Positions 20,401 to 46,055 of a DNA stretch of 64,000 bases are shown here, piece after piece (the stretch's first letter is position 1; every line of letters starts with the position of its first letter). The DNA is from Halichondria panicea (taxonomy: Eukaryota; Porifera; Demospongiae; Suberitida; Halichondriidae), in assembly GCF_963675165.1 (NCBI RefSeq), contig NC_087384.1:669001-733000 (forward strand). Direction: 5' to 3'. Position numbers and translations under genes: made by a program. The notes beneath the pieces were generated by a model. The model saw nothing but the letters and a program-made list of their open reading frames with translations, was not told the origin of the DNA and did no database searches.

Positions 20401-23400
20401 AGACCCCTCACCAGTCTAGCAGGGGGTGGGCAAGCACACACGTAATTATATATGGACACGTAGGCTGTATAATGTGTACAGCTACTGTACGTATGGAACA
20501 TTTCTGAATTACAAATTTGAATGCATTGTATTAATACCAAGAGTATAATATGACAGAGAAGAGAGTATCGAACGTTGATAGATTACATCACCCACACGCT
20601 TGGATTGGTCAGTGAGAAAATTCCAAGCTTGTGACAGATATAGGAAGTCACATTACTCTCCGCATACATCTGATGTACAGTACGCCTACGTTCGATACTC
20701 TCTTCTCTATTATAATTTATACTCTTGGTGGGAGTCACATAAAATAATTGTTCTGTGTGTTTGTGTTACTTGGTGTCAGTGTCAGTCCTGTGCATCATCT
20801 GCATGATCTCGACCATGTGCAGGTCAATGGGCACGTTGGGACCACGCTGCACAGCCAACACTGCATCAACCACCACCTGTGTGGGCAGAGATAGAGAAAC
20901 AATAATGTCTGAACTGAAACCAATATGAGAATAGGCTAGGCATATAATTCAATAGGCCTATAATGCAAACAAACCAAAATTTATACAGGTCGCACAATAC
21001 ATACATGTAGATATATTGAAGTGTGTACATGCAGAATACAGTGTCAAGCTAGAAAATATATAGCTAGGGATGTTTCTCATATATACCAGTAGTACTGTGG
21101 GGTAGACTCCCCGTAGTAGCTAGCACATGTATACAGTTTGTACGATGCACAGACCTCAGTGAGAATGGTTGCCACTTGTTTGGATAGCTTGGTGCAGAGA
21201 GAGGTCCTGGCCACACAGATGAGTGTCTCCCTGTCCATCTCCTTGGAGACCTTCACACTCTCCAATACCTGTGTATGTGTGGTGGATGAAGGCATGTAAT
21301 AAATTATGTAATAAAAGAGCAAAGAGGCTTTTTTACAGAAGGCACAAGCAAACACCACACACAAATTTAAATAGAATTCATAATTATGGTTGTATGCATA
21401 ACGTAATCATAGGTGTGGTTAATTTCAAAAATGGGCGAGCCTCATGTGTTTTAAAAGTGAAGCACTTATTTTAGCACAAAAATGGAAATCGAGATAGATA
21501 CTCTAATCTCCCAAAAAGTGAAGGTGACTCTGACCAACTGGGTACGCTTGAGCAACGCCCCCCTCCTCCTAACGAGAGCATCAGCCGTTCAATGGAATGA
21601 CTATGTCTTTGTGCTAGCTAGTGACGGTACAACACTTCTCTACCACAGCAAACACAATATGTGGTCGATGCTGTCTAAGTCACCCCATACAAGTGTCAAC
21701 CTTGCCCCGGCCTTGACCCTCTATAATGACAGAATTATCACGATGTCTGAGAGAGGAGAAATGTCTACATTTGATTCCCAACTGTGCCAGTGGACAATGG
21801 TTAAAGATATGAATATGTCCGAGGGTAGGGGACCACGAATCATTGCCAGTGACAACAACATTCTCTACTCTGTTGTCGACTTTAAATCAAAAGGGCAGCA
21901 AAAACAAGCCCGAAAAGGAGGACCGCTACAGTTTGAGCTTGTCGCACAAACGGTCAGCCCTAAACACACTGACTGCACTGTCTTCTCGTACAACACAAGC
22001 TCTAAATGGGAGAAGATCTGTGAGATCAGATCAAGCCCTCTCCAATCTGCAGCAGTGGTTGGTGGAACCTTGTTTGTCCTTGCTGGACAAGAAATGTTCA
22101 AATTGACTCTGCCAGTAGAACTAAAAATGGCTACAACCAAAGGTGGCAGTATATCTAAAACCAACGCTACCGCAACCGCCAGCACTCATCGGGGTGGGGT
22201 CCAGAGGGCCGCCAACATATTTTACTGGAAATCCCCTCCCCCGCGAGAGTATTCCTAGAAACCTACCCCCCCAACAACAACAACCGATACTACAGTCCAC
22301 AATAGCCTGTGCCAGTCCTATGTACGCGGGATCAACTCTCCACGCCACTAAAGATACTCTATTCTCTTTCGGAGGGCGGGACAAAGACAACCTGACGTGT
22401 TACGATATAACCCCGACACTGACACCTGGGAGAGTGCCGGCTACATGAGGAGTGCTCGCTACAATGTTGCTGCGGTAACCGTACAAGATACGATAATGAA
22501 TGTGATTGTGCTAGGAGGAAGCCTCGGAAGCAGTGAGCATATCATGACGCAACGACAAGTACACAGTGATCCTGTAGTAATACACGATCCCTCACCTCCT
22601 CCTCCTACCTGGGACAACAAGACGAGCATTGTAGAAAAATGCACAGTCAACTAAACAGTGTACATGAACTACATACTATCAGTGTATACACAACTAAAGA
22701 GATTTATTTTGTGAATGTTAGTTATACAAGCCAGTTCTCCCAACCATGTAATGCATATAACGTACCTACAAATACAAAACAAATAATGGTATTGGTCCAT
22801 GGATAACGGATAGGCTATTAACACACATGAAACGCCTGCAGTCAACTGAACATTATACATGCATATTATAAGATCTAATATATCCACACTCTCTAACACC
22901 TGTGTATGTGTGGTGGACGAGGTTATGTGAAATAGCACATGCACATTGTATTGTTAACTGAACCGAAACAATAGTTCAATGGTGTTTTCATTACTGAGTG
23001 GTTGTGGCACTTAGGGTCGTCCCGAAGGCCTTAATGGGCTCATGTGATCTCAAGTGATCTACATGACTTGTGTGCATCATTAAGTGGTTTAACTACACAG
23101 CCAACACAAGATGGAGGATTATAGTACCCACTTCCAGGGAACAAAAGTGACTCTGACCAACTGGGTACGCCTGAACAACGCCCCCCTCCTCCTACCAAGA
23201 GCATCAGCTGTCCAATGGAATGACTTCGTCTTTGTGCTAGCTAGTGACGATACAGCACTGCTCTACCACAGGAAACATAACATCTGGTCCATGCTGCCTA
23301 AGTCACCCTATAGCTACTTCAACCTCACCCCGGCCTTGACTCTCCATAATGGCCAGATTCTCACGATGTCTGCAAATGGAGAAGTATCCACGTTTAATCC

Positions 23401-26400
23401 CCAGCTGTGCCGGTGGGCAGTGCTTCATGACATGCGTATGGAAGTGGGCAACAGACCGAGACTCCTTGTCAGTTCCAACAACATTCTCTACTCTGTTGTT
23501 GACTTTAAAACACGAGTGCAGCAAGTGCAGCAAGAACAAGGCCTACATGGAGGAGGGCTAAAGCTAGGAAGAGGGCCGCTAGGAGGAGTGCTACCACAAA
23601 ATTTCGGCCAACAACAAGCTTCCTCCAGACACACCGACAGCACTGTATTCTTGTACAACTCAAAATCTAAGTGGGTAAAAATCAATGAGATTGGATCCAG
23701 TCCTCTTAAATCTGCAGCAGTGGTTGATGGAACCTTATTTGTTCTAGCTGGACAAGATATGTTCAAATTGACTCTGCCAGCGGAAACAAAGGTGGCAGCA
23801 AATCCAAAACTAGAAAGTAACACAAAGCTAGCTACAGCAGCGCAAACAGTCACTGGGCTCTTTAGTACGCAAGCAGGAACAAGATCACCGTTTGGAATAA
23901 ACGCCATTCCCCCCCAGAAAGTGCCTAGAAACCAACCAGTCCCACAACAAGTACTACAATCCGCGACAGCCTGTGCCAGTCCTATGTACGCGGGATCAAC
24001 CCTCCACGCCATTAAAGATACTCTCTTCTCTTTCGGAGGGCGGGACGAGGACAACCAACCAACATCTGACGTGTTACGATATAACCCCGACACTGACACC
24101 TGGGAGAGTGCCGGCTACATGAGGAGCTGTAGATACAATGTTGCTGTGGCAACCGTACAAGATACGACAATGGATGTGATTGTGCTAGGAGGCAGCCTCG
24201 GAAGCAGTGAGCATATCATGACGCAACAAGTGCGCCCTCCAAGTAAACCTGTAGTACAGGATTTATTTGGAAATTATGGTCCACAGTTGGTAGCCCCTCC
24301 ATCTCCCTCCCCTCCTACCTGGGACAACAAGACCAGCATCATAGAGAAATGCACAGTCAACTAAACAGTGTACACTAGCTACATGTAAGACTAGCGTATA
24401 GAAAATATAAATTTGTAGCGAAGAATGAATTGCCATTAATTTTGATAAGATAATTTCAATCATGTGATCCAAACAAAAACATTGTACAAACCGAAGATAC
24501 AAAAAAATGTTGGCAGGTGGAAATAATGACAATAAACTAAGAGATTGAATGAGTATTATGATTAACACAGTGTGTGGCCGCTGTATTATTATGTAGAAGT
24601 TAATTAACATATCAGACAATAATTATGGTACAATATACACGATGTACAATGACAATTATTGTACTCCGTCCAATGGAATGATTACATCAAAATAATATGA
24701 ACGTGACAGCTGTACATGTAGCAATCAATACAGTAGTCTAGCAACGAGTGTATTGGGTATGACTCAACCGAAAATGTGCTGTAAAATAGGCCAACAAAAT
24801 TATGTACACTGCAGCTAATTTAGCAATTACAAGCTCATTGTGTATGTAAGAGAACACGTACCATATAAGTTCCGGCAATTGTTCCGGCAATTGAACAATT
24901 CATATTATTGTACAGTGGCACAATCAATCATGTGATCTGCAAATTTAGCTCTTGGCTAAAAATGGCTAGTGACAAAAAGTCTAAAGCGGTACTTCGTTTT
25001 CACAAATCACCAGTTGCAATCAACATAAGACTAAAGACAACAGTGACTCTGACCAACTGGGTACGCCTGAACAATGCCCCCCTCCTCCTACCGAGAGCAT
25101 CAGCCGTCCAATGGAATGACTACATCTTTGTGCTAGCTAGTGATGGCACAGCATTGCTCTACCATGCTACAAATGCTATGTGGTCTGTTCTAATAAGCTG
25201 CAACGAAACACTGCCACCAGAAGGTCCCCCACCACTAGCCCTGTACAAAGGTGAAGTCATAACTGTATCCATCAATGGGACGGTGTTATGTTATAGTAAA
25301 CGTGCAAGTCAGTGGAAGGAGTGTCCTGAGCTTAAAATGGATTTAAAATACAGCTACATTCACTCCATTGCAATGATGAGTGATAGAAACAACTTGTATG
25401 TTATCATGTACTATGGTAGCCGATCAAATCCAATTTATGGCTCTCAGGCATGCCATGTCTTTAGCTACAGCTCTGGTCATAGTTGGGAAAAGATCAGTGA
25501 TATGGAAGCTCCACGCAGTATCACCTTTAAATCAGCAGCACTGGCTGGCTCTTCCCTATACATTCAATCAGGGAAAAAGATACACAAGCTAGCAATCGAA
25601 GGCTTGAAAACTGCCGAGCTGGTACCGGAGCTATCACCAGCAAAGAAACAAAAAACAGAAGAATTCGTGCAAATGACATCACCAAACATGCCTCCTTTAA
25701 AAGGATCAACTCTTCACGCCATTAACAACGAGCTATTCTCTTTCGGAGGGCGGGACGAGAACAACCAACCAACATCTGACGTGTTACGATATAACCCCGA
25801 CACTGACACCTGGGAGAGTGCCGGCTACTTGAGGAGTGCTCGCTACAATGTTGCTGTGGCAAACGTTGAGATTGATACGAAGAAAGAAGTTTTTGTACTC
25901 GGAGGAAGCTTTGGGAGCAAGAGCTTACAGACACCGCTCAAGGTACATGCACCATCGACAATATCAAGCACGACATCATCGAACGATGATTGGGAATGTT
26001 CCACATCGATGATGGAGAAGTGTGTAGTATAGTGACTATAGTGCTGACTTACTGTATAGTTAATAATTATAATACATGACTGGTAGCATCAAGATAGTAA
26101 TTGTATGCGTATACAGTAATGCAGGCAGTTAGTGTTTCAGTCAATATTATAAACATACTTGAGTAAACTAAGAACATACAAACACTTAATTACTAGATGC
26201 AGGACATTATCAATGAATTCACTCACTGCAACTATACACACGATTAGTTACACCCACTTTTAGTTCAAAATCACGAAACAAGAGCGGCAATGGTAAGTAA
26301 CGCAGTATCATATAATAATAAAATTAGTCAATGACATATCTTTGTATTCCATCACAGGCTTCACTAGACCCTCCCCCTGTCACACCATCGAAGGTGACTC

Positions 26401-29400
26401 TGACCAACTGGGTACGCCTGAACAACGCCCCCCTCCTCCTACCGAGAGCATCAGCCGTCCAATGGAATGACTACGTTTTTGTTCTAGCTAGTGACGGTAC
26501 AACACTGCTATATCGCAACAAACATGATATGTGGTCCATGCTGTCTAAATCACCCTATACAAGTGACAACCTTGCCTCAGCCTTGACCCTGCATAAAGGC
26601 AGAATTCTGACGATGTCTTTGAAAGGAGAAGTGTCTACATTTGATTCCAAGCTGTGCCAGTGGACTGCGCTTAAAGATATGAACATGTCCGAGGATAGTG
26701 GACCACGAATCATTGTCACTGACAATAACATTCTCTACTCTGTTGTCAACTTAAAATCATCGGTACAGCAACGACAACATGTTAGTGGGTTAAACCAACA
26801 AGCTAGCCAGTGCACTGTATTCTCGTATGATCCAAGCTCTAAGTGGGTAAAAATCTGTGAGTTTGGATCAAGCCCTCTCAAATCTGCAGCAGTGGTTGGT
26901 GGAACCTTGTTTGTTCATACTGGACAAGAAATGTTCAAATTGACTCAGCCAACACAACTAACAATGCAGTAGAAACGAAAGTGGTAGCAAATCCAAAACT
27001 AGAAGAAAATACAAAGCTACCATCAGCGCAAATAACCACTGAGTTTAAATTAGGTACGCAAGCACCGGCCACCTTCATTGCACAAGCACCAACAGTACAA
27101 TCTACTAGAATTTCTGGAAAACAAACCATCTTCCCCAAAAGATTCCTGGAAACATATTCACTCCACAGTTCGCGACAGCTTGTGCCAGTCCTGCGTATGC
27201 GGGATCAACTCTCCATGCCATTAAAGATACTCTCTTTTCTATCGGAGGGCGGGACGAGGACAATCAACCAACATCTGACGTGTTACGATATAACCCCGAC
27301 ACTGACACCTGGGAGAGTGCCGGCTACATGAGGAGTGCTCGCTACAATGTTGCTGTGGCAACTGTACAAGATACGACAATGGATGTGATCGTGCTAGGAG
27401 GGAGCCTCGGAAGCAGTGAGCATATCATGACGCAACGACTGAACCTGCCAAATGAACCTGTAGTACAGGCATCTTCTAATGGTGGTTTGTTCGGCCGGCC
27501 ATCCCCACAACGTCCTCCTACCTGGGACAACAAGACTAGCATCATAGAGAAATGCACAGTCAACTAAACTAAGAACTACACATACAACTAGCTAGTGTTT
27601 AAATATGTAGCAAATATTTTATGTTGTGGGATTGCCTTTTATAGTAGTGATTAAATGTATTTTAAAATTTGTAGCTATAATTATAGTAGAATCGCCATTT
27701 AATAGTCATCATAAATTATGTGATGCAAACAAAAAAGCGCTATTAAAAAAAATGCAGGCACGTGATTGAATGAATGTCTATTGTTAATAATTAACACAGC
27801 GTGTGGCATGTATGTGAAGCAATTAATACAGTAGTCTAGCAACGAGTGTATCGGTTATCATTCAACTAGAAATATGCTGTGAAGTGAGGCCAACACAATT
27901 ATGTACACTGCAGACCATTTAGTAATTACAAAACTCATTGTACGCACACAACAATTGAACACAAACTAAGTTCAGTTGAGCAATTCAATTTTGTATCTAG
28001 TAGTACATGCACTTGAAACGCAAACCACTACGTACAATATCGTGGCATGAAAACAGTAAGAGGCATGAATATAGGGTTTGTACATAAAATACAATGTAGC
28101 AACCATTTTAATATTCATATTTAGATTAAAAAATAACTGTGTGGTTGCGTATATAAACAAATACATCATAAATATTGGGTATTTCCCAACATGGGCTCAG
28201 GTGACCTAAATTATTCTCCACATGGTTAGCTAAATACACAACAGAAGTCAAGATGGATACACACTCTCCAACCTCCTCCAAGAAATCGAAGGTGACTCTG
28301 ACCAACTGGGTACGCCTAAACAACGCCCCCCCTCCTCCTACCGAGATGATACATACTCTCTTTCGGAGGGCATGACGAGGACAACCAACCAACATCTGAC
28401 GTGTTACGATATAACCCCGACACTGACACCTGGGAGAGTGCCGGCTACATGAGGAGCTGTAGATACAATGTTGCTGTGGCAACCGTACAAGATACGACAA
28501 TGAATGTGATCGTGCTAGGAGGAAGTATAAAATTATACCCAAAACATACATTGAATCTTTGCGCTACAATTTGTACGCTGGTAGTACACATACATATGTA
28601 GCATACATGTACACTGTTCAATTGACTGTGCATTTTTCTACAATGCTGGTTTTCTACAATGCTTACATCACTTTCTACTGCCCGCTCTGTCATAGGGAAC
28701 TCACTGCTACGTAGTGGTTTGCGTTTCAAGTGCATGTACTACTAGATACAAAATTGAATTGCTCAACTGAACTTAGTTTGTGTTCAATTGTTGTGTGCGT
28801 ACAATGAGTTTTGTAATTACTAAATGGTCTGCAGTGTACATAATTGTGTTGGCCTCACTTCACAGCATATTTCAAGTTGAATGATAACCGATACACTCGT
28901 TGCTAGCAGTGAGTTCCCTATGACAGAGCGGGCAGTAGAAAGTGATGTAAGCATTGTAGAAAACCAGCATTGTAGAAAAATGCACAGTCAATTGAACAGT
29001 GTACATGCATGCTACATATGTATGTGTACTACCAGCGTACAAATTGTAGTGCAAAGATTCAATGTATGTTTTGGGTATAATTTTATAGTCAAGTCAACAA
29101 CATTTTCTCTCAACCATGTGGCACACACATGTATATTGTACAAATACAACTAAGAAAATGAAAGTGGTAGGCAGATCCACTGCATCGCATAAGCTAGTAC
29201 AGTGACTTCAATATTGTCGTGTGTGTAAATAGATAACTAAGATACTATCGACATGGCGACCAATTTTTGTTACAAATGGCCCTCCATAAGATACGACAAC
29301 AGTGCCTAGCAAACTAGCATGAAGAGCTTATTAATTAAAATAATGATCGACAACATTCTAATACAGTATCGTCAGATTACATCCATGTATACTGGTAGCT

Positions 29401-35400: not shown

Positions 35401-38400
35401 CAAGAGCATCAGCCGTCCAATGGAATGACTACGTCTTCGTGCTAGCTAGTGACGGTAGAGCACTTTTCTACCACAGCAAACACAATATCTGGTCCATGCT
35501 GCCTAAATCACCCTATACAAGTGCCAACCTTGCCCCGGCCTTGACCCTCTATAAGGGCAGAATTCTCACTACGTCTGTGAATGGAGAAATGTCTACATTT
35601 GATTCCCAACTGTGCCAGTGGACAGTGGTTAAAGATCTGAATCTGTTTGAGGGTAGTGGACCACGAATCATTGCCAGTGACAACAACATTCTCTACTCTG
35701 TTGTCGACTTTAAAACACAAGTGCAGCAAGAGTATGAGCAAATAAGGCGAAGCGATAATTTCAGACAAGTTTCCTATAAACACACTGAGTGCACTGTATT
35801 CTCGTATGATCCAAGCTCTAAGTGGGAGAAAATCTGTGAGATTGGATCAAGCCCTCTCAAATCTGCAGCAGTGGTTGGTGGAACCCTGTTTGTTCACGCT
35901 GGACAAGATATGTTCAAATTGACTCAGCCAGTACAACCAGAAGTGGCAGCAAATCCAAAACTAGAAATAAATACAATACTACCATCAGCGCAAACAACCA
36001 CAGAGCTCAACTTTGGTATGCAAGCACTGGCAGTATCTCATACTGGAATAAATGCCCATAATATTCCTAGAAATCTACCCCCCCAGGGACAACTACAGTC
36101 CGCGACAGCCTGTGCCAGTCCTACGTACGCTGGATCAACTCTCCATGCCATTAAAGAGACGCTATTCTCTTTCGGAGGGCGGGACAAAGACAACCAACCA
36201 ACGTCTGACGTGTTACGATATAACCCTGACACTGACACCTGGGAGAGTGCCGGCTACATGAGGAGTGCTCGCTACAATGTTGCTGTGGCAATCGTACAAG
36301 ATACGATAATAGATGTGATTGTGCTAGGAGGGAGTTTTGGAAGCAGTGAGCACATCATGACGGAGCGAGCAGTAGAAAGTGATTCAAAAACCACCCCAAT
36401 TCGTCCTCCCTGGAATAACATGACGAGCATTGTAGAAAAATGCACAGTCAACTAAACAGTCAAAATTAAAAGTTACCGTCCATAATTAGTATGTACTACC
36501 AAGTGTACAGACAATCGTATATTTTAGGTACAATCTATAATTATGTCAAAGTCAATATTATATTTTATCTCAACCATGTGGTAGATATATCGTACAAATA
36601 CAGCTAAAAAATGGTTGGCAGATCTATATAATGATAATAATAGTCACTACAATTAAACGAAAGCATCACAGGTGCTGAGTAGGTGGCAATGAAGCTACAG
36701 TACTAGCAGACTATTATGAAATACACGTCTTTGTGCTAGCTAGCGACGGTTATAATATGGACAATTCGCTGTATTTATTTGACCTACACATGTATGTAAC
36801 AGGGTAACAACTTTTTTTTGATCTCAAAATACCTTTTCTATTTACTATAGCCTCGGCCGGACAAGGAATACTAGTTTAGCAGTCTCCCGTTTTGTTAAAC
36901 ACTAAAAGAGTGTTGCAGCTGTAGATGTACATAACGGTAATAATAGCAGAAATTACACCTACACGTATAATGCAGGCAATGAATGTTATAGGCATATCAT
37001 ATATCATATGTTGCAGTGGGCTAATAACGGAACATTCAATCACATATTAATGCTAGACTAACGTCAACAGAACATTATCAATGAATTCACTGACTGCAAC
37101 TATACACACGATTAGTTACACCCACTTTTATAAGAATCACAAAGCAAGAGCAATGGTAAGTAACACAGTATCATACAATAACATTACTAGTCACTGACGC
37201 TTCACTAGACCCTATCTCTACACGCGCAGGACGTACTCGCGTAGCACGTCCTGCCACACCATCAAAGGTGACTCTGACCAACTGGGTACGCCTGAACAAC
37301 GCCCTCTCTCTCCTACCGAGAGTATCAGCCGTCCAATGGAATGACTACGTCTTTGTGCTAGCTAGTGACAGTACAGCACTGCTCTATCACATTACAAATG
37401 ACATATGGTCTCTTCTAATAAGCTGCAAAGAACAACTACCACCAGAAGGTCCCCCACCACTAGCCCTGTACAAAGGTGAAGTTGTAACAGCATCCATCAA
37501 TGGGACGGTGTTATGTTATAGTAAACGTGCAAGCCAGTGGAAGGAGCGTCCGGAGCTTAAAATGGAATTGGAATACAGCTACATTTACTCAATTGCAATG
37601 ATGAGTGATAGCCACAACTTATATGTTATCATGTACTGCGGTAGCCAAGTAAAACAAACTACTCACTATCAGGTATGCCACGTCCTTAGCTACAGTTCTG
37701 GCCATAGTTGGAAAAAGATCGGTGACATTGAAACTCCATCCAATGTTTCCAATATTACCCTTGAGTCAGCAGCACTGGCTGGCTCTTCCTTGTACATTCA
37801 ATATGGGGGGAAGATGTACAAAGTAGCAATCAAAGGCTTGAAAACTGCCGAGCTAGTATCACCAGCAAAGAAACAAAAAACAGAAGAAGTTGTGCAAATG
37901 ACAACACCAAACATGCCTCTTTTAAATGGATCCACTCTCCACGCAATTAATAACAAGCTATTCTCTTTCGGAGGGCGGGACGAGGACAACCAACCAACAT
38001 CTGACGTGTTACGATATAACCCCGACACTGACACCTGGGAGAGTGCCGGCTATATGAGGAGCTGTAGATACAATGTTGCTGTGGTGAACGTTGAGATTGG
38101 TACGAAGAAAGAAGTTTTCGTACTTGGAGGAAGCTTTGGGAGCAAGAGCTTACAGACACCGCTCAAGGTTCACGCATCGACAACATCAAGCACGACATCA
38201 TCGAACGATGATTGGGAATGTTCCACATCGATGATGGAGAAGTGTCCAGTGTAGTGACCATAGTACAGAGTCACTGAGTTACTGTATAGCCAATACGATA
38301 GCTGGAGATAATTGCACATGTTTTGTAAAGAAAAGATTGACAATTGCTTTACTTGCTACAGTATAGCACATGATCAATTAACGAATACACTTCCCAGACT

Positions 38401-41400
38401 ACATGGAGCACACCTTGTCCGGGAAGTGTATTTCAATGAATTCACTCACTGCAACTGTACACACGATTAGTTACACCCACTTTTAGTTCAAAATCACGAA
38501 ACAAGAGCGGCAATGGTAAGTAACGCAGTATCATATAATAATAAAATTATCGTGATTACTATAATTATAATCAATGACATATCTTTGTATTCTATCACAG
38601 GCTTCACTAGACCCTCCCCCTGTCACACCATCGAAGGTGACTCTGACCAACTGGGTACGCCTGAACAACGCCCCTCTCCTCCTACCGAGAGCATCAGCCG
38701 TCCAATGGAATGACTACGTCTTCGTGCTAGCTAGTGACAGTACAGCACTGCTCTATCATGCTAAACACGGGATGTGGTCCATGCTACCAAAATGTCCGAT
38801 CGAGCAACTCGATGGTGCTCCACCAATAACAGTGCACAAAGGAAAGGTTGTCACACTTTTTTGCTGAACCCCAGTGAACCCTATTCAGTTAGGAGATATG
38901 CTTGCTACAAATGTTGAGAGCACTGCATCTTTCATATACATCTGGGCGAGTTCTAACCAGGACCTCAGCTGGAGAAACACTATAGCTAGCCATAGAGACC
39001 TTGAGCAACGTACAGAGCTAGCTAAACAGTCAGTTACAAGCGTTCTACAAGCCTAGAGTTTGTCGTGGCAAGGTCGCGATAAACTGCCAGCTAAGCAAAC
39101 GTCATCACAACGGAATTTAATTAAAAAAAGTGTCGTACCTCCTCTAGACCAGCATTATAGAGAAATGCACAGTCAACTAAACTAAGAACAAAACATACAA
39201 CTAGCTAGTGTTTAAATTTGTAGCAAAGATTATATATTGTGGGATTGCCATATATAGTCACATTTATTTTCTTTCAATCACGTGATGCGAACCCAAGAGC
39301 TACAGCAAAAAAAAGGCAGGTGGATACAATGACAATAAAGAGATTGCATGTACTGTAACATGTGCACACATTAAGTGCAGTAAACTGAAACAAAACAAAC
39401 ATTACGCAATAATTATTACACAACTATAAATAAAAATAACTGATTTTATTGCCATTTATGACTAACAGCTATCTCAATCATGTGATACATACATAACATG
39501 GTATATATAATTAGCATGTGAGTAACTTTTAAAGCTCTACAACAAGAACAATAAGAATGGTAGGTGAAGAATGACGATGATAGTGACTACAAAGTGATTG
39601 ATAATGTACTAATATTCATAGGCCACTTTCTACTTCGGCTCAAAAACGATAGAACTGACCAACTGGGTACGCCTGAACAACGCCCCCCTCCTCCTACCGA
39701 GAGCATCAGCCGTCCAATGGAATGACTACATCTTCGTGCTAGCTAGTGATGGCACAGCACTGCTCTATCATACTACAAATGACATGTGGTCTGTTCTAAT
39801 AAGCTGCAACGAAACACTACCACCAGAAGGTCCCCCACCACTAGCCCTGTACAAAGGTGAAGTCCTAACAGCATCCATCAATGGGACGGTGCTGCGTTAT
39901 AGTAAACGTGGAAGTCAGTGGAATGAGTGTCCGGAGCTTAAAATCCATTTATATTACAGGAACACTTACTCTATTGCAATGATGAGTGATAGAAGCAACT
40001 TGTATGTTATCATGTACTGCGGTAGCCAACCCAAACCAAGAGGTTTATTATTCAGCTTTCAGGAATCTTGCCACGTCTTTAGCTACAGCTCTGGCCATAG
40101 TTGGGAACAGATCGGTCACATTCGAGATTCACATAATGGTTCCCTTGAATCAGCAGCACTGGCTGGCTCTTCCTTATACATTCAATATGGGGGGAAGATG
40201 TACAAACTAGCAATCAAAGGCTTGAAAACTACCAAGCTAGTATCACCAGCAAAGAAGCAAAAAACAGAGCGAATGACAACACCAAAAATACCTCCTCAAA
40301 GAGGATCCACTCTCCACGCCATTTACGACGAGCTATTCTCTTTCGGAGGGCGGGACAAAGACAACCAACCAACATCTGACGTGTTACGATATAACACCGA
40401 CACTGACACCTGGGAGAGTGCCGGCTACATGAGGAGCTGTAGATACAATGTTGCTGTGGCAAACATTGAGATTGGTATGAAGAAAGAAGTTTTCGTACTT
40501 GGAGGAAGCTTTGGGAGCAAGAGCTTACATACACCGCTCAAGGTACATACACCGACAACATCAAGCACGACATCATCGAACGATGATTGGGAATGTTCCA
40601 CCTCGATGATGGAGACGTGTGCAGTAGTACAAAGTTACTGATTTACTGTATACAGTATATGTAGTTGTTATTGATGTTTAAGATAGAGACATATTGCACA
40701 GCTTTTGCAAACAGATCAAGATAGTTTTGTAACAATATACAATTCTCGATAAAATTGCTATTACTTGCCTATACAATGAGACTACAGTAATCAATTAACG
40801 AATACATTTCCTATTATAGCCCCAGCCAGACAAGACAAGGAGTACACACTAATCATCAGATTACTACATTCAGCAGTTCCCCCTTTTGAAATAATTTGGC
40901 AGCTGCGTATGTACATGTAGCAAGCAATGAGTTAGACAATTATCAGTATATAGGGATCTAATGCAGGTAATTAGTGTTTGAGCCATATTATGCCTCCGTT
41001 GCGCATGTGCAGCCAAGGTATACGATAGTGTGTGTGTGTGTGTAGACTGCTGCAGCTGCTCAAGGATCAATAAAGTGCAAGTAAGAGTCTCTATAGGCTT
41101 CTAGTCATGTTTTCTTGGTTTGCTATTTTTACATTTGCAAAATAATGCTTGGTTCTTGAGATATGCCTAGTTTTGCTTACTTGGAATGCTATTGCAGCCT
41201 TTTCAGAAGAGTGCGTAGCAAAACTTGTTCACCGAGTGTTGCTACTCTACTTAGTAGTTAGCTCTGCACTAGAACGCTAGCTATTGGTAGCTGCAAGAGT
41301 GAGAAGAGAGCTGCAGCCATTAATTTTAGACTTTTGGCATCCCTTTAGCAACAATCATTTCACACTCTTTGAGTTTCTGCCTTGCTGCAGAAATTTTTAA

Positions 41401-44400
41401 GCAAACATTTTTAATGCACGTGTGTATTAGCAATAGCTTTATGTTATGTAGGTTTGGCACATCCACCGAGGCATCAGCACCCGCGGTGCTTTCATTATAT
41501 CCGTGAGCTAAGAGCATAACTGACAGTCAAATACAGTTTTAGATGCTAGACTAACGAGAACATGCCATTATCAATGAATTCACTCACTGCAACTATACAC
41601 ACGATTAGTAGTTACACCCACTTTTATAAGAATCACGAAACAAGAGCAATGGTAAGTAACGCAGTATCATACAATAACATTACTAGTCACTGACATCTTT
41701 GTATTCTATCACAGGCTTCACTAGACCCTCCCCCTGTCACACCATCGAAGGTGACTCTGACCAACTGGGTACGCCTGAACAACGCCCCCCTCCTCCTACC
41801 GAGAGCATCAGCCGTCCAATGGAATGACTACGTCTTCGTGCTAGCTAGTGATGGCACAGCACTTCTCTATCATGCTAAACTAAAGCTATGGTCTATGCTA
41901 CCAAAATGCCCGTATCATCTGAAGGAAAATGTACCGCTAGTCAACTATGAAGGGAAGATTCTAGCAGTCAGCAATCGTTCACAGATATGTGCTTTTGACG
42001 CTCCTACTAGTAGTTGGAAGGAGGAATCTGGACCAACAGTAGAGGAGATTATCCACATGGCTGTCAATCACGATACTCTACATGTGTATGCATGGGTCAC
42101 AAAGTCAACCGGTTACATGTTCGGTAAACAAGGTAAAGCTGCTCTGTTCACACTGACCACTGAAGGATGGGAAGAACACGATATTTACATCCAACGATAT
42201 GCTTCAAAACTTCTGCTTACATCAAAACACATTTTTGTAGAAACTGCTAATTCAAAAGGCATTTATTGCCAGAAATTCAAAAAGACTTCAGAAAGTGAAG
42301 CCGAATCAGACGATACACCAATCGAGCCACCCAAAGAGATAGCTCCTCCCCCCTACAAGGCGTTCACTCTGCACGTGCTGAAAGACACGCTACTTTCGTT
42401 CGGAGGGCATGACGAGGACAACCAACCAACCTCTGACGTGTTACGATATAACCCCGACACTGACACCTGGGAGAGTGCCGGCTACATGAGGAGTGCTCGC
42501 TACAATGTTGCTGTGGTAACCGTACAACAAGACACAACTACAGAGGTCTACGTGCTAGGAGGAGAATTTGGAAGCACCAAACTGAAAATGAAACCCAAGC
42601 TGTATGTACAAACACAAGCATGTACACGTACGCATAATATTATGCATGCTTTTGTATCTACACAAGCACAAGCTACACGTAAATCTACACAAGCACAACA
42701 AGCACCAGCTGACTGGGACTGCTCCACAAGCATTGTTGAAAAATGCACACTGTCAGATTGAAGCTACATGTACGAACCAACTGTATACACACTAGCTAGC
42801 AGCATATGAATTAAACTATACTTGTCTAATGTATGTTACATATTGTATTGATTTGATTCACACTGATCGCATATTACTGAGACGTACGACTAATTACCAT
42901 AAATGTCTCAACAACAGCACCACTCTGACAGATATCTCATTTGTTTTAAGCATGGCATGTTTAACGTGAAGAGCAATAGTATAATTATATGACATTGTAT
43001 GAGCATGGAAGCTACTGTGAGCAGTAACTAACTGAGGCAATGAAACTAAACTAGAGTCATGCTGATAGTCAGTATTACTGGTTGCACTACCATAATGTGA
43101 TAGTGTTGCCATATTATGGCAATTGAGGCGGACATTTTAGTGGTGCACGATTGATCACATGCATTGGGACTAGGATCACATGCAGCAGAGCTAGAACGAA
43201 TCATAATAGAGTCTTCCTATGAAACGAATAAGGCTCTCCCACATGACTGTCCCACATGACTGTATCAAGCAATTACAAAATTCTGTCACTTAAACACATA
43301 ATAGTAATTGTACACGAATATAGGAATAGTTATCATACATGTAACCCGCTAACAATACTACATGTTATCGTACCACATGACACAATCAATCATGTGATTC
43401 CATTCGACAAAAAAAGCTCAAATTTCAGAAGCTAAAGAACAAGAAAATGGTAATCGAGTGACAATAATCTACAATACTTATATGCGAGCATAAAATATTG
43501 TGTTTTTTGGTCAATTATAAGGATACTGCAATTAATATTATTTCCTTGTAAACCCCGCGATTTCAATGGGGATTGTATAGGGTTCGAATAAAGGTGTGAT
43601 ACAAATTTTTGCAGCTGCTTGCATAAATAGCATTAGTTAGTATCACTCATACATAAGCTCATACTGTACTCTTCACACTCAGGCCTCTCTCGACCCAGCG
43701 GACAGCAGCACAAGTGTGCCAGAGAAAAAGGTGACTCTGACCAACTGGGTACGCCTGAACAACGCCCCCCTCCTCCAACCGAGAGCATCAGCCGTCCAAT
43801 GGAATGACTACGTCTTTGTGCTAGCTAGTGACGGTACAGCACTGCTCTATCATACTAAGCTAAAGCTATGGTCTATGCTACCAAAATGCCCGTACAGAAT
43901 GACAAGTAATGTACCGCTAGTCAACTATAAAGGAGAGATTCATGCAGCCAGCTCTTATTCAGGGATGTTTGCTTTTGACGTCGCTACTAGTAGCTGGAAG
44001 AATCTATCCAAGCCAGCAGAAGGGGAGATTATAAGCATTGCAGTCAACGGCAACGCACTACATGCATACATGTATGTATGCATAAAAACTAAGTCAACGC
44101 AAACGTATCCACCACAAACACCTGCTCTGTTCTTGCAGACAATAAAAGAGTGGAAAAAACAAGACCTTGGTGTCAATGAGCTCGGTTCAAAAATCCTACT
44201 AACGTCAAAACACCTGTTCATAGAAACTAATAAAGTCATTTATCGCCAGAAAATCAGCAATGCTTTTGAACCAATCGAGCCACCCAAAGAGATAGCTCCT
44301 CCCCCCTACAAGGCGTTCACTCTGCATGTACTGAAAGACACGCTACTTTCGTTCGGAGGGCGGGACGAGGACAACCAACCAACATCTGACGTGTTACGAT

Positions 44401-46055
44401 ATAACCCCGACACTGACACCTGGGAGAGTGCCGGCTACATGAGGAGTGCTCGCTACAATGTTGCTGTGGCAACCGTACAACAAGACACAACTACGGAGGT
44501 CTACGTGCTAGGAGGAGAATTTGGAAGCACCAAACTGAAAATGACACCCAAGCTACATGTACAAACAGAAGCATGTACACGTACGCATGCTAAATCTAAA
44601 ATGACACCCAAGCTGCATACAAGTATTGAGCCAACGCCTACTGATAAAACACCAGCTAACTGGGACTGCTCCACAAGCATAATTGAAAAATGCACACTGT
44701 CAGATTGAAGCTATATGCACGTACGTACCAACTGTATACACTAGCTAGAAGCGCATACAAAACTACACGTATGTTATAGATTGTATTGTATTATAGCCAA
44801 AATGTTACTTATGAACCATAAATTGTACTCGGACAGTTGCTTTGATAATTGTTAGACCCCAGTTATAACCCACGATCACCTAAGGGCCTCGGGTTAATCA
44901 ACCAACAGAAAGTTTTCAAAAACAGGCTTAAAAATCAACTTTTATTTTAATATGCCATCTTATACATGTAGCTCTAGGTAAAATCATAAAATCAAACCCG
45001 TAATTATTATGGGCACTCAAAGGATGGATACACATTCGTTCCCTAGGTGATAGTGCTGACACTACACCCTCACACTATATTGTACATTCATTTATTATAC
45101 TGCATTTCAGGACATCTATTGTAATCAGGACAATTATTACTTGTGAATAATTACCGTAAACGTCTGTATTAAAGTACCCTCTAAATATAAGCACCACTCA
45201 AACATTTTTTAGTACATCGCAACAGTTAGTACATCGCAACAGTTAGTACATCGCAACAGTTAGTACATCGCAACAGTTAGTACATCGCTACAGTTAGTAC
45301 ATCGCTACAGTTAGTACATCGCAACAGTTAGTACATCGCTACAGTTAGTACATCGCAACAGTTAGTACAGTTATTTAGTGGTGCTTTAAAATTATTAATT
45401 CAGACGTTTACTAAGGTAATGCATTACCTGGAGAGCTTTTCCCTTAGCCTTCTCAAATCCCTCAGTGATGATCCTCGGGTGGAGTCCCTCAGAGACATAG
45501 AGGTCGGCTTGCTTCAGCAACTCTCCGATAATCAGCACATTGGAGGTGGTACCATCTCCCGTGATGTCATCCTGTGTGTGGAGTGGGTGGGGGTAGAGGT
45601 GTGTGAGTTGTGGAGTGGGTGGGGTAAATGTGTGAGGGTGGAGTGGGTGGAGCTTACCTGGGCCGTGGCTACTCTTGCAATCAGTGAAGCTGTGGGGTGT
45701 TGGATTTGCTGCAAGGAGATAGTTTATTTTTATTTTATTTTTTTTATTTTTTTATGCGTGTGGATAGTACACCAATATTTATACCAGTACTGACCATTTC
45801 ATGGAGCAAGACGTTGCCGTCTTTGGTCAGTTTAATGTCTCCAGCTCCAGACACAAGCCTGAGGGGGGAGGGTACGAAACCATTTAATTATCGGAACATT
45901 GGTGTACGGAATAACCACATTTTCATGGTTCCCTTGGGTCCCAGGTTTGTCCTGAGCACATCTTGCAGACCTCTGGCAGCTGAGATGTTCACTTGAAGTG
46001 CTTGAGCAGCTCTGGCGACCTCTGCCTTGGGATTTAGGGATTTTATTGCAGCCAT
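17419..46055 (-). CDS. CCT6: T-complex chaperonin subunit zeta, with a 24-kb intron
   Basis: Seventeen exons join in phase to 536 residues (human CCT6A is 531). Exons: 45916-46055, 45795-45858, 45658-45708, 45428-45571, 21155-21268, 20770-20876, 20305-20415, 20133-20247, 20013-20057, 19875-19957, 19540-19636, 19175-19241, 18846-19033, 18708-18794, 17958-18006, 17769-17841 and 17419-17494. Motifs include [11 protein letters not shown], the ATPase loop [11 protein letters not shown], the apical region, GCVVPGAG-like [12 protein letters not shown], and the end AGMSSLKGD. It is one of eight subunits of the cytosolic ring that folds actin and tubulin. The join from exon 4 (ending KALQ) to exon 5 (starting [13 protein letters not shown]) is exactly the conserved continuity, so intron 4 (21269-45427) really is about 24.2 kb in this sequence. 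It contains the kelch array on the opposite strand. The start codon is 219 bp from malectin, head-to-head. Confidence 0.93.
17690..17735 (-). repeat. Duplicate of CCT6 exon 16 end and donor
   Basis: The sequence cagtagtttgcttaccatga with following bases repeats, with changes, the end of exon 16 and its donor at about 17755-17800. It is a decoy donor segment inside the last intron. Confidence 0.7.
17868..17948. repeat. GT/G-rich tract in CCT6 intron 15
   Basis: Alternating gtgtgtgtg and G-runs between exons 15 and 16. On the coding strand this is CA/C-rich sequence upstream of the exon 16 acceptor. Confidence 0.7.
18155..18515. repeat. Palindromic dispersed element, copy 1
   Basis: The centre is flanked by opposed motifs: ttttctgaaagcttacaaag with acctttcaaatggt on the left, and atcatttgaaaggcctcttt with aagctttcagaaaatc on the right. 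The outer parts also pair (caataacttgaatt / gaagttatggctg). There is no coding capacity. Related copies are at 50665-50965 and 52855-53190, all within introns. Confidence 0.75.
19298..19545 (-). repeat. Minisatellite carrying copies of the CCT6 exon 11 donor
   Basis: About five units of roughly 54 bp (ccatgctatcacatatcaca ... gtgggtggtctcac) lie immediately after exon 11. The unit's end, ctcaccagcaca, matches the true exon-intron boundary, so imperfect copies of the donor and of the last exon bases recur through the intron. Confidence 0.8.
21482..22654 (+). pseudogene. Kelch array copy K1 (frameshifted)
   Basis: Reads openly from [20 protein letters not shown] for 258 codons, with the constant N-terminal kelch core and an alpha-class middle ([16 protein letters not shown]), then stops at about 22256. 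The homology continues in a second frame and returns to the first after a 10-base deletion in the C-terminal core (GGRDKDNL instead of [12 protein letters not shown]). It therefore has two indels, and the C-terminal kelch core cannot be translated as found. The C-core variant is RSARYNV. Its promoter-side flank closely resembles that of K9. It lies about 210 bp from CCT6 exon 5. Confidence 0.8.
22655..23110. other. K1-K2 spacer with a fragment of CCT6 exon 5
   Basis: Bases about 22880-22925 (cactctctaacacctgtgta followed by tgtggtggacgagg) copy the start of CCT6 exon 5 and its 3' splice site at 21255-21290. No other gene is seen. Confidence 0.7.
23111..24364 (+). CDS. Kelch-repeat protein K2 (alpha class), intact
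   Basis: A single exon of 417 residues, the longest copy. Residues about 12-70 form the constant N-terminal core ([20 protein letters not shown], ending in the kelch-like WSMLPKSP). Residues 71-290 are the alpha middle, with a Gly-rich insertion near 150-175. Residues about 295-380 form a clear kelch blade ([36 protein letters not shown]). The end is [14 protein letters not shown]. There is no signal peptide or membrane segment, so it is probably intracellular. The C-core variant is RSCRYNV. It is likely a partial beta-propeller; partner and function are unknown. Confidence 0.85.
   Translation: MEDYSTHFQGTKVTLTNWVRLNNAPLLLPRASAVQWNDFVFVLASDDTALLYHRKHNIWSMLPKSPYSYFNLTPALTLHNGQILTMSANGEVSTFNPQLCRWAVLHDMRMEVGNRPRLLVSSNNILYSVVDFKTRVQQVQQEQGLHGGGLKLGRGPLGGVLPQNFGQQQASSRHTDSTVFLYNSKSKWVKINEIGSSPLKSAAVVDGTLFVLAGQDMFKLTLPAETKVAANPKLESNTKLATAAQTVTGLFSTQAGTRSPFGINAIPPQKVPRNQPVPQQVLQSATACASPMYAGSTLHAIKDTLFSFGGRDEDNQPTSDVLRYNPDTDTWESAGYMRSCRYNVAVATVQDTTMDVIVLGGSLGSSEHIMTQQVRPPSKPVVQDLFGNYGPQLVAPPSPSPPTWDNKTSIIEKCTVN
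24365..24961. other. K2-K3 spacer
   Basis: About 600 bp of AT-rich flank. Its first part is shared with the flank after K6 (atagaaaatataaatttgta ... tgatccaaacaaaaac), so it was duplicated with the genes. No gene is seen. Confidence 0.5.
24962..26032 (+). CDS. Kelch-repeat protein K3 (beta class), intact
   Basis: A single exon of about 356 residues from [14 protein letters not shown]; an in-frame ATG at 24908 is less likely because the MAS start matches other copies. Constant N-core, then a beta middle ([20 protein letters not shown], with short kelch-like stretches [20 protein letters not shown] and [15 protein letters not shown]), then the C-core with variant RSARYNV. The beta tail ([18 protein letters not shown] ... 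STSMMEKC) follows. Intracellular beta-propeller-like protein of unknown role. Confidence 0.85.
   Translation: MASDKKSKAVLRFHKSPVAINIRLKTTVTLTNWVRLNNAPLLLPRASAVQWNDYIFVLASDGTALLYHATNAMWSVLISCNETLPPEGPPPLALYKGEVITVSINGTVLCYSKRASQWKECPELKMDLKYSYIHSIAMMSDRNNLYVIMYYGSRSNPIYGSQACHVFSYSSGHSWEKISDMEAPRSITFKSAALAGSSLYIQSGKKIHKLAIEGLKTAELVPELSPAKKQKTEEFVQMTSPNMPPLKGSTLHAINNELFSFGGRDENNQPTSDVLRYNPDTDTWESAGYLRSARYNVAVANVEIDTKKEVFVLGGSFGSKSLQTPLKVHAPSTISSTTSSNDDWECSTSMMEKCVV
26290..27567 (+). pseudogene. Kelch copy K4 (alpha class), interrupted
   Basis: The ATG at 26290 is followed directly by an intron (26293-26357). Exon 2 starts GCTTCACTAGACCC and reads the leader, constant N-core and alpha middle, but ends at a TAG at 26970 (LTMQ). 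Downstream homology continues in two further frames to the normal EKCTVN end. The C-core variant is RSARYNV, and FSFGG is altered to FSIGG. A truncated product of about 206 residues is possible; I treat the gene as broken. Confidence 0.8.
27826..29090. repeat. Nested inverted duplication around K5
   Basis: Segment A (about 27826-28036) recurs in reverse complement at about 28710-28910. Segment C (about 28526-28708) recurs in reverse complement at about 28906-29090. The order is A, K5 remnant, C, A-reversed, C-reversed. C-reversed is the 3' end of a kelch gene (gagcgggcagtagaaagtga ... aaaaatgcacagtca). The whole can fold into two large hairpins. Confidence 0.8.
28253..28540 (+). pseudogene. 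Kelch copy K5 (collapsed)
   Basis: Starts like K6 (ATGGATACACACTC) and reads the first part of the N-core. It then jumps by an internal deletion of about 0.8 kb to the C-core (variant RSCRYNV), where it is out of frame. The 3' end is lost at the inverted duplication. It cannot encode a normal product. Confidence 0.85.
29091..29795. other. K5-K6 spacer
   Basis: About 700 bp of AT-rich flank. Nothing coding is recognised. The last 50 bases (gttagctaaatacacaacag ...) match the flank just before K5, marking a shared proximal promoter. Confidence 0.5.
29796..30938 (+). CDS. Kelch-repeat protein K6 (alpha class), intact
   Basis: A single exon of 380 residues starting [19 protein letters not shown]. 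Constant N-core, alpha middle with a short Gly-rich loop ([10 protein letters not shown]), C-core with variant RSCRYNV, tail [14 protein letters not shown]. It shares its leader and upstream flank with K5 and its leader with K9. Predicted intracellular beta-propeller-like protein of unknown function. Confidence 0.85.
   Translation: MDTYSPTSSKKSKVTLTNWVRLNNAPLLLPRASAVQWNDYVFVLARDGTALLYHSKHNMWSMVSKSPYTSVNLAPALTLHNSRILTMSVNGEVSTFDSQLCQWTMVKDMNMSEGRGPRIIASDNNILYSVVDFKSQVQQQHVIGGIRLVGGGGLQLGGGLYQQASECTVFSYDPSSKWEKICEIGSSPLKSAAVVGRTLFVQAGEKMFKLTMPAQLKMATNQKIDDFSKPITTGLNFGFPPPQRLLHSATACASPTYAGSTLHAIKDTLFSFGGRDGDNQPTSDVLRYNPDTDTWESAGYMRSCRYNVAVATAQDTTMDVIVLGGSLGSSAHIMTQRLNPPSEHVVQSQPCSGLQLGTSPPPSPPTWDNKTSIIEKCTFN
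31099..31256. repeat. MITE with CGTATAGCGGGT termini, copy 1
   Basis: The left end accgtatagcgggt and the right end acccgctatacgat are inverted repeats about 158 bp apart. There is no coding sequence. It belongs to the same family as 33612-33821. Confidence 0.75.
31540..32755 (+). pseudogene. Kelch copy K7 (gamma class), one-base start frameshift
   Basis: The ATG at 31540 is followed directly by an intron (31543-31595). Exon 2 begins GCCTCTCTCTACCC, as in K14. In K7 the run before GGTGACTCTG has 8 A, whereas the frame needs 9; K14 has agagaaaaa at this place. Reading from the ATG therefore stops after 16 codons. Beyond this the frame is fully open for 370 codons: N-core, gamma middle ([20 protein letters not shown]), C-core variant RSCRYNA, tail SIVERCAVE. 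Assembly error, slippage or a genuine null are all possible. Confidence 0.75.
32756..33046. other. K7 downstream spacer
   Basis: AT-rich, no gene seen. A catgcgcac motif near 33025 is the only GC-rich spot. Confidence 0.4.
33047..33183. repeat. Near-perfect palindromic foldback element
   Basis: A 137-bp inverted repeat from agttagacactgtttt to aaaacagtgtctaact. Both arms contain gatttagaag/cttctaaatc, and the centre holds taccctcgctacgctcggga. There is no coding sequence. MITE-like. Confidence 0.8.
33428..33478 (+). pseudogene. Orphan kelch 5' end
   Basis: ATGGCGTCCAAGATGGATAC and the following bases match the K5/K6/K9-type leader, but homology ends exactly where VTLTNW should begin (gatcgaaggtggg). 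It is a stranded leader upstream of K8. A donor-like gaaggtggg is present, but joining it to K8 exon 2 would be out of frame. Confidence 0.6.
33612..33821. repeat. MITE with CGTATAGCGGGT termini, copy 2
   Basis: The left end is cgtatagcgggtaattttcg and the right end cgaaaattacccgctatacg, perfect inverted repeats. The 210-bp element lies between the orphan leader and K8 and may have separated K8 from its first exon. Confidence 0.85.
33934..34961 (+). pseudogene. Kelch copy K8 (gamma class), frameshifted
   Basis: Exon 2 begins at an acceptor with the GCTTCACTAGACCC leader, but no ATG followed by gtaag is visible upstream. The N-core has Cys for the conserved Trp (AVQCNDY). The gamma middle loses its frame near 34440, relative to K7, after a deletion. 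The C-terminal 180 codons are open in another frame, with C-core variant RSARYNV and tail SIVEKCAVE. Confidence 0.8.
34962..35312. other. K8-K9 spacer with K1-type promoter flank
   Basis: Bases about 35150-35290 (gaagaggcttttttacagaa, then atttaaatagaattcataa, then aaaatgggcgagcc) closely match the flank upstream of K1 at 21325-21440. K1 and K9 therefore share a proximal regulatory region although they lie about 14 kb apart. Confidence 0.65.
35313..36455 (+). CDS. Kelch-repeat protein K9 (alpha class), intact
   Basis: A single exon of 380 residues starting [19 protein letters not shown]. Constant N-core, alpha middle ([20 protein letters not shown]), C-core variant RSARYNV, then [19 protein letters not shown] and tail SIVEKCTVN. 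The MTERAVESD tail also appears in the inverted fragments near 28650 and 28920, identifying a K9-like gene as their source. Intracellular beta-propeller-like protein of unknown function. Confidence 0.85.
   Translation: MDTHSPTSSQKSKVTLTNWVRLSNAPLLLSRASAVQWNDYVFVLASDGRALFYHSKHNIWSMLPKSPYTSANLAPALTLYKGRILTTSVNGEMSTFDSQLCQWTVVKDLNLFEGSGPRIIASDNNILYSVVDFKTQVQQEYEQIRRSDNFRQVSYKHTECTVFSYDPSSKWEKICEIGSSPLKSAAVVGGTLFVHAGQDMFKLTQPVQPEVAANPKLEINTILPSAQTTTELNFGMQALAVSHTGINAHNIPRNLPPQGQLQSATACASPTYAGSTLHAIKETLFSFGGRDKDNQPTSDVLRYNPDTDTWESAGYMRSARYNVAVAIVQDTIIDVIVLGGSFGSSEHIMTERAVESDSKTTPIRPPWNNMTSIVEKCTVN
36456..37152. other. K9-K10 spacer with a kelch remnant
   Basis: About 700 bp without a gene. Bases about 36724-36752 (acgtctttgtgctagctagc ...) are a 30-base remnant of a kelch N-core, showing that at least one further copy was deleted here. 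Confidence 0.6.
37153..38254 (+). pseudogene. Kelch copy K10 (beta class), first-intron acceptor lost
   Basis: The ATG at 37153 is followed by gtaagt as in K4, K11 and K13, but the sequence holding the acceptor before GCTTCACTAGACCC is deleted (ctgacgcttcac instead of ...tcacaggcttcac). In the leader a short insertion contains GCAGGACGT and ACGTCCTGC as inverted repeats. From GTGACTCTG at 37268 the frame is open for 328 codons: N-core, beta middle, C-core variant RSCRYNV, tail [10 protein letters not shown]. With no usable start seen, expression of the full protein is doubtful. Confidence 0.72.
38513..39185 (+). pseudogene. Kelch copy K11 (gamma class), truncated
   Basis: The ATG at 38513, intron 38516-38600 and exon 2 with the GCTTCACTAGACCC leader are intact. 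The N-core reads into the start of a gamma middle, which stops at 38865. About 270 bp of unrelated sequence follows, then only the last codons of an alpha-type gene (agcattatagagaaatgcac, about 39148-39180). The junction tgtcgtacctcctcta resembles the right terminus of the MITE at 56118-56254, so a transposon-related deletion is likely. Confidence 0.78.
39557..40641 (+). CDS. Kelch-repeat protein K12 (beta class), two exons
   Basis: Exon 1 contributes only the ATG (39557-39559), followed by gtaggt. Exon 2 starts at 39622 and runs to the stop at 40641, giving about 341 residues beginning [20 protein letters not shown]. The leader differs from all other copies (ELTNW instead of VTLTNW). Beta middle, C-core variant RSCRYNV, and a tail that reads past the usual EKC end as ETCAVVQSY. 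Intracellular beta-propeller-like protein of unknown function. Confidence 0.82.
40642..41648. other. K12-K13 spacer with a dispersed repeat
   Basis: About 1 kb. Bases about 41030-41330 are related to 58650-58900 in an HPD intron (shared ctataggcttctag, gctagct ... ttagct and agctgca blocks), so this is a dispersed repeat. The remainder has no recognised gene. Confidence 0.5.
41649..42761 (+). CDS. Kelch-repeat protein K13 (delta class), two exons
   Basis: ATG at 41649-41651, intron 41652-41714, exon 2 41715-42761, about 349 residues starting [19 protein letters not shown]. Delta middle ([20 protein letters not shown] ... [11 protein letters not shown]), C-core variant RSARYNV with GGHDEDN, then the delta tail ([18 protein letters not shown]) with a Thr/Ala/Gln-rich stretch and the end [10 protein letters not shown]. 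Exon 2's leader is the same as in K4, K8 and K11, which carry other middles. Function unknown. Confidence 0.85.
42762..43446. other. K13-K14 spacer
   Basis: About 685 bp of AT-rich sequence; no gene or repeat recognised. Its last part (caatcatgtgattccattcg ... agaagctaaag) matches the flank upstream of K7. Confidence 0.5.
43447..44708 (+). CDS. Kelch-repeat protein K14 (delta class), two exons
   Basis: ATG at 43447-43449, intron 43450-43682, exon 2 43683-44708, about 342 residues beginning [23 protein letters not shown]. Constant N-core with LLQPRAS, delta middle ([19 protein letters not shown]), C-core variant RSARYNV, delta tail ending [10 protein letters not shown]. It uses the K7-type leader although K7 carries a gamma middle. 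It is the last copy before CCT6 exon 4. Function unknown. Confidence 0.85.
44709..45151. other. Spacer after K14
   Basis: No gene is recognised in these roughly 440 AT-rich bases. Confidence 0.4.
45152..45420. repeat. Foldback element with internal 17-bp satellite beside CCT6 exon 4
   Basis: The left end attaccgtaaacgtctg is the near reverse complement of the right end cagacgtttactaaggtaat; caccact/agtggtg also pair further in. Between them (about 45210-45370) are about ten tandem copies of acatcgcaacagttagt, some with gctacag. The right end is only 7 bp from the exon 4 donor of CCT6. Confidence 0.85.

Follow-up and report, generated by a model that had tools for sequence, protein, structure and literature searches.

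Clustered protocadherins are among the closest described parallels to the locus analysed here. In the accessible portions of a study of the fugu genes (PMC1852091) and of a review (PMC3966226), they appear as tandem paralogs in which part of a coding exon is homogenised at silent sites, has a raised GC content at third codon positions (GC3) and ends at a discrete boundary, and in which another part of the gene is kept diverse. The NWD family of Podospora (HET-D/HET-E), whose WD-repeat proteins take part in non-self recognition, is a multigene family of propeller genes under concerted evolution in which, as far as the excerpted text of PMC1805685 goes, selection diversifies one propeller face at sites in the d-a loop and the b-c turn. 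The fold itself is that of the KLHL/KEAP1-type Kelch propellers. We examined a 64,000-nucleotide stretch of the genome of the sponge Halichondria panicea (NC_087384.1, positions 669,001 to 733,000; hereafter the window), which sits in contig C8 of the 131-Mb genome that was searched. Between window positions 21482 and 44708 it carries 14 Kelch-only gene copies (K1 to K14), all on the same strand. The locus is probably a tandem array of Kelch-only propeller genes that evolve by birth and death, with regional gene conversion of two islands in the coding sequence, the N-core and the C-core.

The copies fall into four classes according to the variable middle that separates the two cores: alpha (K1, K2, K4, K6, K9), beta (K3, K10, K12), gamma (K7, K8 and K11, the last assigned from its front alone) and delta (K13, K14). 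A tree of the middle, built from the 12 alignable copies and from D, a single alpha-type gene found at a distance of some 0.78 Mb along contig C8, recovers every class with 96-100% bootstrap support, and the coordinates, copy number and four classes given by a first-pass annotation of the window are correct. That annotation also assigned both cores to every copy, which holds for 12 of the 14. In K5, the middle is deleted and a truncated N-core is fused to the C-core; K11 keeps an N-core followed by a gamma front and has no C-core. The layout has two conserved islands and is not simply the constant-variable-constant one proposed: the leader ahead of the N-core varies and class-specific sequence returns after the C-core. 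Likewise, the description of the middles as barely aligning is overstated: they are divergent (23-29% identity between classes), yet the classes share the strand order.

Seven copies look intact (K2, K3, K6, K9, K12, K13 and K14), as does D. Five are clearly broken (K1, K4, K5, K8 and K11), including K1 with two frame changes, one of them within the C-core. Two more are doubtful because of smaller defects: K7 has a frame change of 1 nt, located in an A-run that follows the leader, and K10 lacks 20 bp, including the splice acceptor. Such losses would suit a decaying cluster with little present function, a reading made improbable by the purifying selection observed within classes (see below) and by the intact-looking members of alpha, beta and delta.

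Silent sites provide the strongest contrast between the cores and the rest of the gene. A codon alignment of 13 copies (12 of the 14 plus D, with the fragments K5 and K11 omitted) yields 58 between-class and 20 within-class pairs. Between classes, the proportion of synonymous differences (pS) is 0.185 in the N-core and 0.284 in the C-core, as expected from the earlier claim that the cores are nearly identical even at silent sites. Elsewhere it reaches 0.795 and 0.723 in the two parts of the middle, 0.611 just after the C-core and 0.835 in the tail. Each core has a lower pS than the middle in 58 of 58 between-class pairs. Among codons that specify the same residue in both copies, 659 of 4379 (15%) differ between classes in the cores and 1736 of 2915 (60%) outside them, again with the cores lower in every between-class pair. 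Therefore, the silent identity of the cores is not a by-product of protein constraint. In a circular-shift control with 412 possible shifts, the observed gap was reached in 18 of 5000 draws, a rate that barely exceeds the share expected from the unshifted position alone. The constant/variable pattern is real and not due to chance, and the silent-site identity of the cores is explained by exchange rather than by scaffold constraint. Core identity by itself is consequently no proof of a recognition scaffold.

A constraint on the nucleic acid, such as an overlapping code or an RNA or DNA signal, might also freeze the cores with no need for exchange. One 36-nt stretch of the C-core would fit this idea, as it averages 98% identity over the aligned copies, D included. 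We nevertheless regard such a constraint as highly improbable. Core silent sites do vary, at the rate given above for same-residue codons, and the variants cross classes in linked blocks, which is unexpected from constraint alone. Moreover, an Rfam search at the gathering threshold found nothing in the cluster.

Trees and distances also separate the cores from the middle. For the N-core, distances average 0.085 within and 0.088 between classes and so give no hint of class (permutation P=0.35), whereas those of the first part of the middle are 0.168 within and 0.560 between classes (P=0.0002). The C-core tree (114 columns) rejects an alpha clade (approximately unbiased test, p-AU 9e-9) and a beta clade (8e-4). 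In the N-core tree (123 columns), none of alpha, beta and delta is recovered, and the gamma pair groups weakly. A C-core block of linked differences, coding for SCR or SAR, is common to alpha, beta and gamma. In addition, the two cores each exceed the middle in GC3 in all of the 13 copies, and GC content at fourfold-degenerate sites (GC4) is 0.574 and 0.479 in the cores compared to 0.405, 0.266 and 0.365 elsewhere. By analogy with the fugu protocadherins, for which the available text uses it in this way, the raised GC3 of the cores might be a sign of repeated conversion.

Sharp boundaries and near-identical flanking cores could instead reflect cassette swapping, in which a recent burst of copies exchanged their middles with older, diverged Kelch genes. 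This scenario is quite unlikely, given that N-cores are as variable within classes as between them, that class-specific sequence resumes beyond the C-core and that the 5′ heads (described below) vary independently. Also, no donor was seen when the genome was searched with the K2 protein, a search that did not cover the middles of the other classes separately. Matches with E <1e-16 were all in the cluster except for two pieces of D, and the next match beyond the cluster and that copy had an E value of 6e-6. Exon shuffling was considered separately as the origin of the cores and is ruled out because both cores sit within one exon.

The 5′ ends of the genes are shuffled between classes. Copies K4, K7, K11, K12, K13 and K14 have an apparent one-codon exon 1, consisting of an ATG followed by a splice donor, with an acceptor just before the leader. 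The donor of K14 is weak, K10 has a donor but has lost the acceptor with its missing 20 bp, and K8 showed no exon 1 within the part inspected. Head A spans the 5′ flank, exon 1, the intron and the leader, some 200 bp in all. It is shared at 76-91% similarity by one copy from each class, K4 (alpha), K10 (beta), K11 (gamma) and K13 (delta), and its leader part is present also in K8 (gamma). Head B is common to K7 (gamma) and K14 (delta), and head C occurs in K1, K5, K6 and K9 and, judged by leader and flank, in D. K2, K3 and K12 each have a head of their own. K11 is a chimera that joins its gamma front to an alpha 3′ end, 91% identical to that of K4 over 113 nt. The shuffled heads, the chimeric K11 and the deleted K5 together argue against inheritance of heads and cores with the bodies they now accompany. 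Short intergenic matches to the N-core and to head C (24666-24688, 36725-36750 and 33438-33481) are perhaps the remains of lost copies. Two overlapping pairs of inverted repeats surround K5 and appear to be the product of a recent rearrangement.

In the mechanism that we favour, four old body classes would persist in blades II-IV, the rear of blade VI and the tail. Ectopic gene conversion or unequal crossover would shift three short modules between copies of whatever class. These are the two cores and the 5′ head, which runs from the promoter side through the one-codon exon 1 and the intron to the leader. Exchange is probably confined to the cores because only there would the classes be similar enough to pair, and the islands would therefore maintain themselves. 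Presumably, conversion rather than crossover is responsible. The locus has the protocadherin-like features of process, which are regional silent homogenisation, conflict of the C-core tree and raised GC3. In those same portions of the literature, protocadherins differ in having cadherin ectodomains and one homogenised 3′ region, whereas the window genes encode a propeller with two islands in one exon and an exchangeable 5′ head.

The predicted proteins have little besides the propeller. We scanned nine copies (K2, K3, K6, K7, K9, K10, K12, K13 and K14) against Pfam, and Kelch_1 was above its cut-off of 20.1 bits in all nine (28.8-54.8 bits), a strong repeat being placed for the most part at the C-core. 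All matches were to Kelch-type or related propeller families, except for a weak, sub-threshold GATase_4 match in K9 (E 0.068). KLHL/KEAP1-type propellers share the Kelch motif, and the model of K6 aligns with the Kelch domains of KLHL12 and KEAP1. The window copies differ from them in being Kelch-only, since no BTB or BACK match was found in the nine scanned copies, for which a split upstream exon could still exist. Leaders are short, and plus-strand frames clear of the Kelch genes are all at most 91 aa. Among the 60 of 69 solved-structure matches by sequence that were inspected, all fall at the C-core side, at profile positions 222-317 of 347. If the propeller closes as a ring of six blades, the N-core would adjoin the C-core to create a constant arc (V-VI-I) opposite a class-specific arc (II-IV). 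The middle would then occupy a sector, blades II-IV, and not one face of the propeller. Thus, a linear constant-variable-constant gene would be predicted to fold into a propeller whose ring has a constant arc and a variable arc. The locus offers a clean example from nature of probable exchange restricted to two islands within a single exon, and these islands are predicted to meet in the closed ring. The classes might bind different partners and the constant arc might meet a common one.

Several observations weigh against this account. The C-core retains some class signal (distance 0.078 within and 0.122 between classes; P=0.0008), and the N-core tree, being too short, does not reject an alpha or a beta clade (p-AU 0.37 and 0.45). 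Raised GC3 may have other causes. Within classes, same-residue codons differ at a rate of 0.131 in the cores and 0.173 outside them, with the cores lower in 14 of 20 pairs. Silent divergence of the C-core is high in the gamma pair (pS 0.48), and beta shows no clear rise with distance from the N-core. Exon 1 is predicted from splice-site sequence. Finally, both structural models have a mean predicted local distance difference test score (pLDDT) of about 52, lowest toward the ends, and the arc picture therefore depends largely on strand order.

A recognition repertoire, as in allorecognition or innate immunity, would be expected to arise if selection diversified the middle arc and core conversion preserved the shared scaffold. 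The combination of shared blades with four divergent middles, the shuffling of modules and the high turnover with its many broken copies are compatible with this, as are the diversified repeats of another Kelch family in the same genome (see below) and the regional conversion reported in the accessible portions of the protocadherin literature (PMC1852091, PMC3966226). However, the ratio of nonsynonymous to synonymous substitution rates (dN/dS) of the middle within classes is 0.42-0.47 for alpha, 0.50-0.61 for beta, 0.56-0.68 for gamma (one pair) and 0.63-0.64 for delta (one pair). Sliding windows in alpha (15 pairs) peak at 1.05, in a linker, when the last 8-column window, which has no silent differences, is omitted. 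Windows above 1 in beta, gamma and delta come from only one to three pairs and often from short gappy stretches. Furthermore, the blade V residue after GG is R in 10 of the 11 copies that retain the FGG motif, and the nine scanned copies are propeller-only, without a kinase or death-like part.

The middles are clearly under purifying selection on average, and rare selected sites may be present among them. Positive selection on surface sites was not seen by segment or window dN/dS, and the copies are too few for per-site analysis. The first-pass annotation had suggested, as speculation, that the middle is a diversifying recognition surface, which these values do not bear out. It had also named purifying selection on the middles without polymorphism as counter-evidence. 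From one assembly, purifying selection is what we find, which speaks to that part of the counter-evidence only. Its broader notion of modular diversification survives to the extent that a propeller with shared blades has modules exchanged between classes; the heads and cores are what move, and the middles are not seen to do so. A recognition role for the window cluster is possible, with no evidence from selection here, and we consider it unlikely. The face-directed selection described for Podospora in the excerpted text of PMC1805685 is not seen in this family.

The same genome holds a second Kelch array, only distantly similar to the window family, with at least 126 exons (126 matches scored of 467 candidates in a protein search). 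These matches are 82-90% identical to the query copy, and four contain a stop. In three fetched regions, each Kelch exon is on the same strand as kinase-like exons, a linkage checked with Pfam at locus L040 only, and coiled-coil-like frames are visible by eye between the two. One subtype has a weak death-like exon in front, for which the Pfam Death matches (E 0.04 and 0.10) are below the cut-off. Against solved structures, this exon has 12 matches, every one a death-domain protein and 11 being FADD (best E 0.019).

This array shows diversification in register with the repeats, which was not seen in the window family. Thirty exons were fetched and 27 aligned (three were missed by the filter), 23 of which are distinct. 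The ratio of nonsynonymous to synonymous proportions (pN/pS) is 1.23 overall, 3.44 in 27 hypervariable columns of 344 and 0.67 in the others. Of the 16 most variable positions among the first 290 in the 23 distinct exons, 10 fall in two places of the repeat register, either directly after GG (four of six repeats) or 16-17 residues earlier (six of six). Twelve such register sites have a pN/pS of 3.04 compared to 0.89 elsewhere; they were picked after their variability had been seen, which makes the entropy and pN/pS comparisons partly circular and leaves the repeat register as the observation. Outside these two places per repeat, the exons vary little. The hypervariable sites are presumably equivalent to the ligand-face positions of KEAP1. 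There is also a resemblance to the Podospora sites under selection in the d-a loop and the b-c turn, as those are given in the available text of PMC1805685. Among 150 scored kinase-exon matches, 45 reach 95-100% identity, and when two genes were compared, 11 of 609 nt differed in the kinase exon and the Kelch exon had 62 mismatches and 24 gap positions.

This second family looks like a germline-diversified recognition repertoire or receptor family, and, with good support from sequence, it is somewhat probable that it is the signalling arm of a Kelch non-self recognition repertoire with a hypervariable face of twelve positions. It serves as an internal yardstick for the appearance of a propeller under diversifying selection, and it raises the possibility that animals have a large recognition family made of Kelch propellers. 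A profile comparison with the window family aligned 61 columns, around the C-core only, and the face sites are therefore not transferable to the window middle. What would link the window cluster to the second array in a recognition repertoire is the shared fold only. It is accordingly a distinctly unlikely proposal that the window cluster forms a kinase-free arm, recombining head, middle arc and C-core by conversion, alongside the signalling arm in an animal counterpart of the fungal NWD receptors.

Literature searches returned no recognisable account of the window Kelch family or of a kinase-Kelch array in sponges. In the accessible part of PMC6208332, a Kelch-motif gene has a negative expression change after microbial cues in two sponges (two tables), which is a weak hint. 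Searches for relatives in other genomes gave 38 genome-contig and 16 viral-contig pattern matches, none of them confirmed.

Coordinates of the Kelch genes, their modules and related features. Positions are those of the window unless a contig or locus is named.
Feature	Position	Strand	Description
K1	21482..22654	+	alpha, head C; disrupted, two frame changes
K2	23111..24364	+	alpha; intact, 417 aa
N-core island of K2	23147..23269	+	41 codons, VTLTN..LLYH; predicted closing strand and blade I (K6 model)
Variable middle of K2	23270..23992	+	predicted blades II-IV and linkers
C-core island of K2	23993..24148	+	52 codons, GSTLH..YNVAV; predicted blade V and start of VI; Kelch_1 match
K3	24962..26032	+	beta; intact
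Head A of K4	26200..26390	+	5′ flank, putative exon 1 ATG|GTAAGT (ATG 26290), intron, leader
K4	26358..27567	+	alpha with head A; frameshifted
Two overlapping inverted-repeat pairs around K5	27836..29087		arms 199 and 184 nt, 99% complementary
K5	28253..28525	+	head C and N-core start joined to C-core; middle deleted
K6	29796..30938	+	alpha, head C; intact
K7	31540..32755	+	gamma, head B; putative exon 1 ATG 31540; 1-nt frame change
K8	33934..34961	+	gamma, head A leader; frameshifted
K9	35313..36455	+	alpha, head C; intact
K10	37153..38254	+	beta, head A; 20 bp with splice acceptor missing
K11	38513..39185	+	head A, N-core and gamma front with alpha-type 3′ end from 39146; C-core absent
K12	39557..40641	+	beta; putative exon 1 ATG 39557
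K13	41649..42761	+	delta, head A; putative exon 1 ATG 41649
K14	43447..44708	+	delta, head B; putative exon 1 ATG 43447, weak donor
D	L039:3932-5953, C8 ~1.495 Mb	minus	alpha-type
Second Kelch array	C1:15.48-17.39 Mb, C1 ~11.0 Mb, C6:0.48-0.80 Mb, C28		loci L040-L072

The distant copy D carries a 308-aa Gly/Leu/Pro-rich insertion in a linker of its middle, the DNA of which is a minisatellite with 18-bp and longer periods. Short Gly-rich stretches occur at the same place in K2 and K6. In the second array, identical-protein Kelch exons are found at different places on contig C1 (L050/L051, L060/L061 and L063/L064/L065), either because they were duplicated very recently or through duplication in the assembly. 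Kinase-like exons, about 45-51% identical to the Kelch-linked kinase, form two other dense arrays, at C3:0.87-2.46 Mb and C11:4.4-6.5 Mb. Upstream of the window cluster are a sulfotransferase-like open reading frame (14518-15924) and divergent genes for histones H2A and H2B, accompanied by a histone 3′ stem-loop (16063-17213), and a malectin-domain frame (46239-46697) is located downstream.
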